Below are positions 282-35,500 of a stretch of 64,000 bases of DNA, piece after piece (position 1 is the first letter of the stretch; the number at the start of each line of letters is the position of its first letter). The notes under the pieces are model-generated. The model saw nothing but the letters and a program-made list of their open reading frames with translations. It was not told the origin of the DNA and did no database searches. The stretch is from assembly GCA_963669155.1 (NCBI GenBank), contig OZ022588.1, positions 18,027,438 through 18,091,437 on the forward strand, read 5' to 3'. Made by a program: the position numbers and the translations under genes. This DNA comes from Arbacia lixula (lineage: Eukaryota > Echinodermata > Echinoidea > Arbacioida > Arbaciidae).

Positions 282-552
282 GATCATCACTGCTACACAC
301 ATATACATGTGCATGTAGATGATGAGTCTGAATGACTACCGGTACCCACAATATTTGAATTATTTTTTTTTTTGCCTGATCATCAGTGTTAAATGTATGT
401 GTGAGTAGATGATGAGTCTAAACATGATTTTTGTTTTGCCTGATCATTACTGTGACATGTATGTACGTTTAGATGACGAGTCTGAACATGATTTTTTTTC
501 CCTGCCTGATCATCACTGCTACATGTATGTGTGCATAGATGACGAGTCTGAA
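282..552 (+). repeat. Four tandem copies of an intron end with its splice acceptor
   Basis: The segment TGATCATCACTGCTACATGT...TAGATGAYGAGTCTGAA occurs four times, with its TAG at about 315, 405, 470 and 536. The spacing is about 90, 65 and 66 bp. The last copy runs into the Hsp70-like exon at 539. The first three carry the acceptor AG and about 12 exon-like bases and then revert to T-rich intron sequence. Confidence 0.85.
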
Positions 553-1220
553 CGTGTGCATCGGTAAGCAGGAGTGGCTGGATGCTAACCCGAACGCAGC
601 CATCGAGGACTTCAAGAAGCAGGAAGAAGATTTCAGGACCAGCTTGGAGGCTATCCTCATCAAACTCTCTGAACCACGTAAGGAACATTACCTCGCTGCA
701 TAAAGGGAAAGTCCACCCAGAAGTTAAATTTGATTTAATCAAAGCAGAAGAATGAAATTAACATATTAGTGACAATTTGGCGTAAATCCGTTGAAGGATA
801 AGAACACTATGACTTTTTAAAGCCTTGATTTTGTGACGCCATAATATGAGATGGGCCCCCGCATGTTATGTGCTGAATACTTTCTATTAATTGCTCTTTT
901 TCCAATTTTAGATGAAGGAATAAATCTTTTTCAGAGAGGTATGTGTGTAAAAACATGTGTCTAATGATATATCAAATGCACAGGTAAAATGGTAAAGTGT
1001 ATATCTTTTTAAGAAAATTGGCATTTTCCAAAAAAAATTAGTAAATGCATTATCGTCCTGATAATGTGATGAGTGGTGATTGTAATAATACTTTTTATCA
1101 CTGTGAGATGTGGCTTTAAGATGCATCTTTGTCTTGATTCACTACCATGTTTTTCTTTTCGTCCCATTTTGTTTCTTCCATTTCATTATTGCAGCTCCAG
1201 AGAAGCCTCACAGGCGATGA
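539..1220 (+). CDS. Hsp70-like protein, C-terminal end (last two coding exons, partial gene)
   Basis: The coding exons are 539-677 and 1195-1220, joined in phase 1 (donor CAC|gtaagg, acceptor tgcag|CTCC), with stop TGA at 1218-1220. The readable 54 residues contain QEWLDANPNAAIEDFKKQ followed by a charged helix and end in a short PPPEKPHRR tail. The WLDAN...A.EDF...E pattern matches the alpha-helical lid at the end of the Hsp70 substrate-binding domain (compare ISWLD...AEKDEF in cytosolic Hsp70 and ADIEDFK in BiP). The lid closes over bound peptide in the ATP-driven chaperone cycle. There is no EEVD or HDEL terminus, so this is neither a classical cytosolic Hsp70 nor BiP; a divergent Hsp70 relative is more likely. 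The ATPase and most of the peptide-binding domain would lie left of the window. The acceptor before 539 (gcatag|ATG) is weak in pyrimidines and belongs to a four-copy tandem repeat, so the exact exon start is uncertain. The family call rests on a short segment. Confidence 0.5.
702..1035. repeat. MITE-like element, AAAGGG...TCCACC family (partial copy)
   Basis: Begins TAAAGGGAAAGTCCACCCAGAAGTT and contains the family's internal blocks: a GATTTTGTGACG stretch, an 'AAATCCGTTGAAGGATAAG' stretch and a 'GTATATCTTTTTAAGAAAATTGGCATTTTC' type block. Related copies lie at 28142-28407, 34461-34904, 40800-41240, 44495-44877 and 45500-46010. It fills the last intron of the Hsp70-like gene. No transposase is encoded, so it would be a non-autonomous element. 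Confidence 0.65.
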
Positions 1221-32500: not shown

Positions 32501-35500
32501 ACACGCGCACATGTACTACTACAGTTGTACATGGTACGCAGTAGACAGTACTGAATAAGGTGTGTGATGCATAATGGCGCGCCTTCTGGAACTGTGCGTG
32601 GATAGATGAGTGCTCAACGCTTTTTCGTAAAGTTATAGCCTTTCTGTTTAAATACAGGATTGCTAATTTTGCTCCCTTATATGAGTGAATGATACCAATT
32701 TCTCATGTACTCCACAATCACAAATTTAACCACTCGCGAAATTGTTGGGAATTCAAGATTCATGAAAAATTTTACTCGCTAAATATATGGCGTATACAGT
32801 AGTCCCCAACAATGCAAAAAAAAGCCCCCACCAATCACAAAAGAGTGCCTGTGAGAACAAAATCCCTGAAGTCTGCCTTCAAGATGGCTGGTGGGGGCTC
32901 CTAGTGAAAAGTTACATGGGGCTCTGGGTGATTTAGCCCCCTGCAATGTAAAAAAAAAAGAGCCCTTATGAGAAAAGGCATTTTAATTAAGACATTAAAC
33001 ATTTCTCTATTCATATTACCCTGATAGAGAATTTTTGCAGATCGATTTGATTGGACCTTAGGAATCACAAACTAACAATATATGAATTGCTTCAAGACAT
33101 AGCAGATTTGGGAGTGGACTTTAAAATATCTGTGTTTGCTGGAGCAAGCACATGTGAAGAAATCATCCGACTTTGCTGGTAAAGAGCTCCTTTTGGTAAC
33201 ATGATCCTGTGATCACACTCATGAATATGCACCAATTTTACTGGAAGTGCTGAGTGATCCGAGTCCCTAAAGCTATCCAATAGTGTATTGCAACTGTCTC
33301 ATGAAGTCTGCACGTCCGGATACATTTCCGTATTGGGAAATACAACAATTGTCGAACATACATGTATACTGCCCTATTTTGACAAAAGGAAGCAAGTGAC
33401 AAATCACTCATATTTGGGTTATTGGTACCAGTAGATTGTACCCAGCATTACCTGCAGACATAAAAATCTGGAGAAGTTTTCATCTTGCTATGAGATATGA
33501 TGATATGGTGTTGCACTGATGCCAATGCAAGTGACAGATACATTTTGCTCATTTAATAGAAAAGTCTCTTCTGTTAGTTACTTCCTTTTGTCAAAGAGGA
33601 CAGTATACACATGTGCAGTATCAATCATGAAGGAGGATAGTGCAGGGCCTAGAAGACCGTTTACCTTCGAATGGTTCTTGCAAGGTCCATGTATTCCTTT
33701 CTCTTCCTCATCTTTCTCTGCACAGAATACACTGGCCCTGATATTGATTTGACCTGTCAGACACACACAGTGAAAATCATCAGGAATAGTCATGTCAATC
33801 TCTTGGCTCACAGATGTATTCAGATCTTACATTTTTTAGTAACATGAATTGATAGAAATACAAACCATAGTTCATTCAATGCATGCCCTACTATGAACCA
33901 CCTTCTCACACACGATATAAAAGGCATAATTACATTTTATTTTATTGGTATTATTTACCCAGGGTAGCCACTTCAGTGGTTGAACACTGTTCTACCAGGG
34001 GGCCCTGCTTTGACATATAACACAAACATGGTTTACGTATATCCAAAAGGAAACATAAACATTAACCCTCTCATTAATATTGGCTCATTCACTGTATTAA
34101 ATATCACTGATCTCTTAATGCATTGGTACTTAGAGGGTTAACCCTCTCACTGCCATTGAATTATAAATCAATGGTCTCTTCATGCCTTGGTACCAAGGGG
34201 GTTAACATTTGTGAATCAACTTAAATTATTGCAAAAACTTTTTTTTTTTTTAACTCTGTAACTGCTGAGACCTTTTCACGAAGACAATCTTAAAGTGACA
34301 ATAAACTGAACGGCCTTTCTAAGTACTGTGATTGGGCAATTTTCATTTCATGCAATACAAAGCTTATCTTTGGACACTGTCACTAGCATGGCCTTGAGGT
34401 TCGTGTAATGTTTTAAAGTTAATCTAGTTCTTTCTGCACAGAGTTGTATGTATACTTCCTTTGAAGGGAATGTCCACCATGAAGTTAAGTACATTTAAGT
34501 GAATGCAAAAAAAAAGGTAAGCATATTAGTGAAAGTTTGACAAAAAATCAATCAATGGATAAGAGAGTAAAGTTTTTCTAAATTTTGATTTTGTGACATC
34601 ACACGTGAGATGCTTTCCCATTTGTTGTGTACTAGTTTATTTGAAAATGTTGAAAATTTGAAAATTTTCTCAAAAGGATATACACCATGTTACATGCGCA
34701 TTAGACACATGTTTTAACAAAAATAATCCTATGAAAAAAAAAATGTTCTTTCATCCAAAACCAGAAAAGGCATATGTATGTGGAAAATAGTACACAACAT
34801 ATTAGAGAGCACCTTGCACATAATGTCAAAAAATTACAACTTAAACAAATCATAACTTTCATGTTTGTGCTTTTATCCAAACCAAGGGGGGACTTTCCCT
34901 TTAATGTGTTTTCTCAATCTCCGCCACATTGACAATGACTTCCTTCTGCAATATTTCATCTAAACGACATCATGTTCTTGATCATTCTACACGTATTAGT
35001 GTACATAGATTTTGGAGCACCAGGATTAAGAAAAGAAATGATTGATTACCTTTCTGAGCATTTTTCTGCCATAGAACAGCACTTTATCACGCTTCCGGAA
35101 CCTAGGCGTGCGCTGTGCTTGGACTGAAATGAGAAACATGTGAATGATAGCATGATTAGTAATGTAAGAGTCGGAAGCTACATGTATGGAAATATTTTCA
35201 AAGACAAGTACAGTGTAACTAAAAAGTGAATGTATTATTTCTGACAGTCATATTAATGCTTAACTCTACTAGTATCAAGCTCAATGTACTAATGTATAAA
35301 AAGGCTGAGTTGATTATTAAAGAGTATCTATTTTCAAATGAGTTTGTTTATCTTTTTCCACAGAATTAGAATTCATGAAACACTTGTCCCATCATCATGG
35401 GTCCTGGTCTAGTTTGATTTCAACGCCCACATCATTTCACTATGATTCCTTCATATGATGATTCTGAAATGAAATGAGAATGGGAACTACAGTAATGGTA

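Follow-up and report, generated by a model that had tools for sequence, protein, structure and literature searches.

Tandem copies of exon boundaries in introns of Arbacia lixula: probable mirage-type duplications that crowd around exons

In a 64,000-nucleotide stretch of the genome of the sea urchin Arbacia lixula (hereafter the window; G000:C13:18027438-18091437 of a 607-Mb genome assembly in 590 contigs), short segments that cross exon boundaries are present in two to four copies in a PNPLA6/7 gene and in an Hsp70-like gene. Similar copies, in longer arrays, are found in myosin and kinesin genes sampled elsewhere in the same genome. Duplications crowd around exons in these sequences, with no clear sign that the splice site itself is favoured. 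The kind of duplication is already known and matches the “mirages” of amphioxus. We consider it probable that these are mirage-type tandem duplications with an excess close to exons, that the exon edge is not a special target, and that the decoy splice sites they create are neutral. An earlier note on this DNA had proposed a process acting at exon edges; its observation holds, the sampled genes show the effect more strikingly than the note could know, and its interpretation is partly right.

The PNPLA6/7 gene (neuropathy target esterase family) lies on the minus strand at 7463..38414, where 31 coding exons connect into an uninterrupted reading frame that ends in its only stop codon. Its product matches the Pfam families cNMP_binding, NTE_Ploop and Patatin, which assigns it to the neuropathy target esterase group, and the exon numbering of the earlier note is consistent with this model. 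The 3' end of the Hsp70-like gene occupies positions 1 to about 1230 of the plus strand. BLAST self-comparison of the window (offsets up to 1000, score of at least 34) returned 30 matches, compared with none in any of 10 block-wise dinucleotide shuffles, which rules out chance similarity as the source of the copies. Some short-period tandem pairs, for example that at 17890, were missed by BLAST, which was replaced by a Smith-Waterman scan followed by clustering. The scan, applied to the real sequence of the window only, resolved 23 loci: 14 fall in the PNPLA gene, 4 in a third gene (plus strand, about 45-60 kb, with a Pfam match to DUF4647), and 5 elsewhere, including the Hsp70-like acceptor.

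The claim that segments spanning splice sites occur in two to four copies was borne out for the donors of PNPLA exons 13, 15, 22 and 29 and for the acceptors of PNPLA exon 26 and the Hsp70-like exon. The Hsp70-like acceptor is present in four copies with a period of about 64 (281..557, plus strand, found by both self-comparison and Smith-Waterman). The real copy is situated at about 494-557 with the exon start at 539, and the upstream copies at 281-332, 364-427 and 428-491 all keep the AG. The PNPLA features are read on the minus strand. The exon 29 donor (9402..9567) consists of the real segment 9497-9567 and a copy at 9402-9470, with a period of 95, 80% identity and the GT kept. The exon 15 donor (23336..23520) pairs 23459-23520 with a copy at 23336-23396, at a period of 123 and 84% identity, again with the GT kept. 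At the exon 26 acceptor (12354..12521), the real segment 12354-12429 has an upstream copy at 12448-12521 (period 94, 84% identity, AG kept). The exon 22 donor (16974..17273) includes 51 exonic bp in its real segment, 17146-17273, and has a downstream copy at 16974-17106, with a period of 172. The exon 13 donor forms an array at 25236..25579 with a 119-bp period, 4 exonic bp and 70% identity; three copies are clear, with GTAAG legible in each, and the fourth that had been counted is only plausible by eye. As the earlier note had observed, the divergence varies among copies.

Two further items of the original list stood in part. On the acceptor side of exon 29 (9690..9956), three intronic copies are present, at 9704-9749, 9813-9842 and 9911-9956, but the similarity across the edge is weak. 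The exon edge is at 9696, and the repeated part starts 8 bp within the intron; similarity that crosses the edge is short, is limited to the first two copies as judged by eye, and its spanning part was not detected by the decoy scan described below. The exon 5 fragment is a 40-bp segment of 95% identity in intron 4 (32863..32902; source 32254-32293), but it is dispersed rather than tandem, 609 bp away from its source, wholly exonic and without a splice site. The list also left unweighed the loci that touch no exon edge, which make up 8 of the 14 loci in the PNPLA gene (the exon 5 fragment included) and all 4 in the third gene, at score 34 with an 8-bp tolerance. Two such loci, neither assigned a strand, served for comparison: a 157-bp tandem array of 6.2 copies in intron 23, away from the exon edge (14809..15774), and a perfect 43-bp tandem duplication within an intron, which ends in the 5-bp overhang CAGCT (17890..17980).

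Genome searches by family gave at least 73 myosin and at least 126 kinesin motor matches. Irrespective of repeats, 200 kb surrounding a subset of the myosin matches (L009-L028) and 40 kb surrounding a subset of the kinesin matches (L032, L033-L035) were fetched, and these stretches are referred to as the independent sample; about 8 kb of segments A and B is N. Three stretches, L029-L031, were chosen for suspected repeats and are kept outside every test, being used for description and for the repeat mask only. Boundary copies are common in the fetched myosin and kinesin stretches, and the duplications thus recur in other genes. Segment A (C3:16561000 on) has 7 copies, spread over 1.1 kb at 40313-41379, of the final 91 bp of a myosin exon together with its donor. 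Segment E (C3:15160001 on) repeats a 129-bp unit, which carries the end of another myosin exon with its GTGAGT donor, about 18 times over 2.4 kb, at 8759-11139. The kinesin stretch L029 carries, at 1772-2514, 7 copies of a 105-bp unit that holds an acceptor and the start of the P-loop exon. Each of these units also has a GTAAG-like or GTCAG-like site, and as a result the gene finder calls six small “exons” ahead of the real one. Of the nine duplication loci in the 10 kb of L029, the one for which it was chosen included, six cross the edge of a predicted exon; L031, likewise chosen on suspicion, has zero loci at threshold. The duplication unit has a median of about 60 bp among the sampled loci.

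Exons outside the window were predicted with a small gene finder of our own. On the PNPLA gene, 20 of 29 internal exons were exact before retraining and 18 of 29 after it, when 38 of 48 predicted edges were correct at score 8. Nine exons that the gene finder missed and family searches matched were added by rule. The test that bars placements from swallowing whole exons, and those after it, used predicted exons of score 9 and more; for the former, one low-complexity prediction (A 17874, if still listed) was filtered out. Hand edits were made before the decoy scan and the later tests: predictions A 18126 and N 7052 were removed, A 40212 was given an end at 40403 in place of 40447, and the start of the Hsp70-like exon was shifted from 527 to 539.

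Edge-spanning loci are about 2-fold more frequent than expected at random points of the whole gene domain. The P values below come from several nulls on one data set and are uncorrected for multiplicity. Under plain circular shifts, which let a locus swallow whole exons, the edge count was 6/14 against 4.2 expected in the PNPLA gene (P 0.20), 18/80 against 13.5 over all sequence at score 34 (P 0.10) and 16/51 against 10.7 at score 50 (P 0.03); arrays from Tandem Repeats Finder gave 6/33 against 5.3. Over all sequence, P ranged from 0.03 to 0.44 by threshold and method. When placements were barred from swallowing a whole exon, 19 of 76 loci were edge loci against 9.2 expected (P 0.001), 3 of 79 loci having been dropped as failing the placement rule, as the constrained tests do. 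The same test gave 14/59 against 6.3 in the independent sample (P 0.003), 5/14 against 2.5 in the PNPLA gene (P 0.09) and 0/3 in the third gene. An expectation based on the ancestral unit gave 18/79 against 7.15 over all sequence and 13/61 against 5.3 in the independent sample, or 9/51 against 4.35 there with offsets up to 400 (P 0.025).

These excesses could reflect a process specific to the edge, in which duplications start or persist preferentially across splice sites. Both boundary kinds are affected, and donors are struck more than acceptors (14 to 5), which also points this way, as does the uniform-rate simulation described below (P 0.02). We regard such a process as unlikely. Score 50 apart, the unconstrained shifts mostly lack a significant excess, and the signal changes character once the sequence near exons is examined by itself.

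Of 55 loci that lie entirely in introns, 22 are 100 bp or less from an exon, against 8.7 expected. The local-null and class-count tests used offsets up to 400 only, and they define an edge locus differently: the local null asks for crossing by a margin of a few bp (12 loci), and the class count accepts any exon overlap (16 loci). Among 63 loci, the class count gave 16 edge loci against 10.4 expected, 19 against 8.8 for intronic loci at 100 bp or less, 12 against 17.3 at 100-400 bp and 16 against 26.5 deeper. The near-exon intronic loci are thus enriched more than the edges themselves. In the local null, loci were allowed to fall only within 150, 250 or 400 bp of exons. Over all sequence at score 34, 12 of 38, 43 and 47 loci were edge loci against 12.5, 10.7 and 9.6 expected; in the independent sample, the counts were 8 of 28, 33 and 35 against 9.5, 8.4 and 7.2, and the edge excess is gone. 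A count by points agrees: copies contain 13 of the 165 edges that are curated or supported by homology and 8 of the 176 remaining predicted edges, compared with 7.5% and 7.9% of intron positions.

Because near-exon intronic loci are at least as enriched and the local null is flat in the independent sample, the edge excess is read as part of a broad exon-proximal excess. In the window together with L009-L028 and L032-L035, duplication copies cover a share of 0.092-0.108 of the intron positions that lie 100-400 bp from exons, compared with 0.058 beyond 1.2 kb. The data do not support interspersed repeats as an explanation of the shortage deep in introns, as non-repeat intron gave 0.053 beyond 1.2 kb and 0.102 at 100-400 bp, with a repeat mask built from the fetched sample alone. 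The proposal of an exon-edge process therefore stands for the roughly 2-fold domain-wide excess but not for the edge as target, and the third gene, with 0 of 4, adds nothing to it. The earlier note had set exon edges against random intron positions; in the sampled stretches the frequencies are not equal domain-wide, but the difference at the edge vanishes locally in the independent sample.

Several results weigh against this reading. The chief one is the uniform-rate simulation, in which the ratio of edge coverage to coverage of the 100-400 bp zone is 0.35, whereas the observed ratio is 0.66, reached by 2% of 150 runs; in absolute terms, edge coverage is 0.065 observed and 0.019 simulated. A hand argument that edge coverage should be half of the intron plateau was dropped as too simple once the simulation had given 0.35. 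At score 50 over all sequence, the local null gave 12 of 30, 32 and 36 against 10.8, 9.1 and 8.3 (P 0.38, 0.17 and 0.10), so that within 400 bp a surplus persists. The PNPLA gene alone has 4 edge loci among 6-9 in the local null, against 1.6-2.3 expected (P 0.05-0.15). The edge excess is also stronger in young loci: at identity of at least 0.88, 7 edge loci were counted against 3.7 (6/21 against 1.55 in the independent sample under the ancestral-unit expectation), and below 0.88, 9 against 6.7. Some residual preference for the edge is possible.

The age split bears as well on a reading by ascertainment alone, in which true rates are uniform and exon-containing pairs stay recognisable for longer through selection on one copy. 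A constrained copy does slow the divergence of its pair, and five PNPLA edge cases are old, with 70-84% identity. Slow divergence would, however, place the excess in old pairs, and this is contradicted by an excess at least as strong in young ones. The excess also applies to wholly intronic loci near exons (8 against 3.2 at identity of at least 0.88, 11 against 5.5 below it). The split is imperfect, because an old array may seem young if its copies have undergone gene conversion. We think it improbable that ascertainment accounts for the pattern.

The decoy scan found 53 copies at 22 exon edges, and 49 of the 53 keep GT or AG. At the splice dinucleotide the per-locus identity is 0.939, compared with 0.864 for the other positions (Wilcoxon P 0.013). 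This better keeping of the dinucleotide, together with the many intact sites, could be taken to mean that the copies are retained as splicing regulators or spare splice sites. The value of 0.939 nevertheless fits neutral decay beside a constrained real copy: because the real site is fixed, half of the 0.136 divergence is expected, and we estimate a dinucleotide identity of about 0.93 under neutrality. The exon 22 copy, whose 16-residue reading was compared by eye with 16 residues of the exon itself, holds 5 of its 7 mismatches within 40 aligned exonic bp at the third codon position, and the period is a multiple of 3 at 9 of 18 edge loci, against 6 expected. By eye the exon 22 copy suggests coding selection, but this was not borne out across the 21 edges with a frame, where mean mismatches by codon position are 0.128, 0.095 and 0.159; so mild a third-position excess is what silent changes of the real exon would give. 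When the arrays of segments D and E are read onward from the exon, stop codons are met (by eye), and use of those decoys would break the protein. A function for the decoys thus appears very unlikely. The decoy sequences fit neutral drift, in which copies would be neither purged nor kept, and the claim that the duplications are tolerated is upheld to that extent.

Human IFI6 (the 6-16 gene) carries a splice-donor minisatellite of short 12-bp units, of which several donors are used. Both cases present an array of donor units beside an exon, with long units here and short ones in IFI6.

Much closer are the mirages, tandem duplications of exon-intron boundaries described in the amphioxus globin and Adh3 genes (PMC3087553). 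In lancelet PGBD5, repeats of 60 and 108 bp lie over splice sites; the paper that describes them cites similar cases in Adh and troponin C, and mentions no aberrant mRNAs (PMC3902484). The two papers describe mirage copies as leaving splicing undisturbed, and length variation of mirages in amphioxus Adh3 and in a globin (PMC3087553, PMC3902484). Both systems share minisatellite-like arrays in which the boundary at the 5' or 3' end of an exon is repeated in the neighbouring intron. The units are of similar size, 150-160 bp in the amphioxus globins and 60 and 108 bp in PGBD5; those of the BflGb6 globin are 81-100% identical, and many mirage copies keep AG or GT, as here. The present case differs in arrays that reach about 18 copies and in a density measured against intron controls. 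Those mirages were described in cephalochordates, whereas ours come from one genome assembly of A. lixula. No mirage reports outside cephalochordates were found among open-licence papers, a pine study having the word in another sense, and nothing alike appeared in the titles and abstract openings of the echinoderm literature among the matches listed.

A related route is the gain of an intron in the potato RdRp gene by tandem genomic duplication of an AGGT-containing exon, as reported (PMC4974935). A tandem duplication that carries splice signals is shared by both. In contrast to potato, no new intron is seen here, and the copies appear to fall within existing introns and to lengthen them. In the PNPLA model each exon is intact, and the copies are found in introns, clear of the exons.

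Other features of the window were recorded alongside. Long TAG and AGA trinucleotide arrays are present in PNPLA introns at 26933-27257, 29534-29731 and 31634-32025. An intronic palindrome at 8782-9154 has two 186-nt arms, 87% complementary, around a 1-nt spacer. An intron of the third gene holds, at 51900-54480, an element of about 1.2 kb in two consecutive direct copies (by eye). The Hsp70 label is that of the earlier note; a Pfam search with a 63-residue piece of the product returned no match. Just 3' of its coding end, 1269-1861 is a high-copy dispersed element, foldback-like, with inverted arms inside at 1455-1554/1615-1714 and 1322-1381/1789-1848. A 2-kb query that holds this element gave 11,367 first-look candidates, of which 40 were scored, and both strands match at the same places.

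The events that we propose for mirage-type duplication begin with short segments, which may duplicate head to tail through an ordinary local mechanism such as slippage or microhomology repair. Unequal exchange would then enlarge them into arrays that reach about 18 copies. In the genes sampled, duplications occur most often no farther than about 100 bp from an exon, for a cause that may lie in their origin or their retention. Where a unit crosses an exon edge, the copy attached to the exon would stay functional and under selection; the others would turn into intron, their splice sites mostly intact and presumably unused, and drift neutrally. The net outcome would be an intron lengthened by one unit or more.

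A bolder reading, which we hold only tentatively, makes exons the centre of a hot zone. Within about 100 bp of them, tandem duplications would be favoured in their origin or expansion, in a manner linked to transcription, splicing or chromatin, and the zone would be one of the chief ways in which introns grow as well as a lasting store of ready-made splice sites. If true, such a zone would copy exon ends repeatedly into introns, up to about 18 times, and new exons or introns could be recruited from the copies. Ordinary genes, here those of myosin, kinesin and PNPLA, can be rich in boundary copies of the mirage type. Intact splice sites that lie beside the real ones in introns offer a natural test of spliceosome choice, and the exon-centred gradient, should it extend to the whole genome, would amount to a measurable bias, of mutation or of retention, in intron growth.

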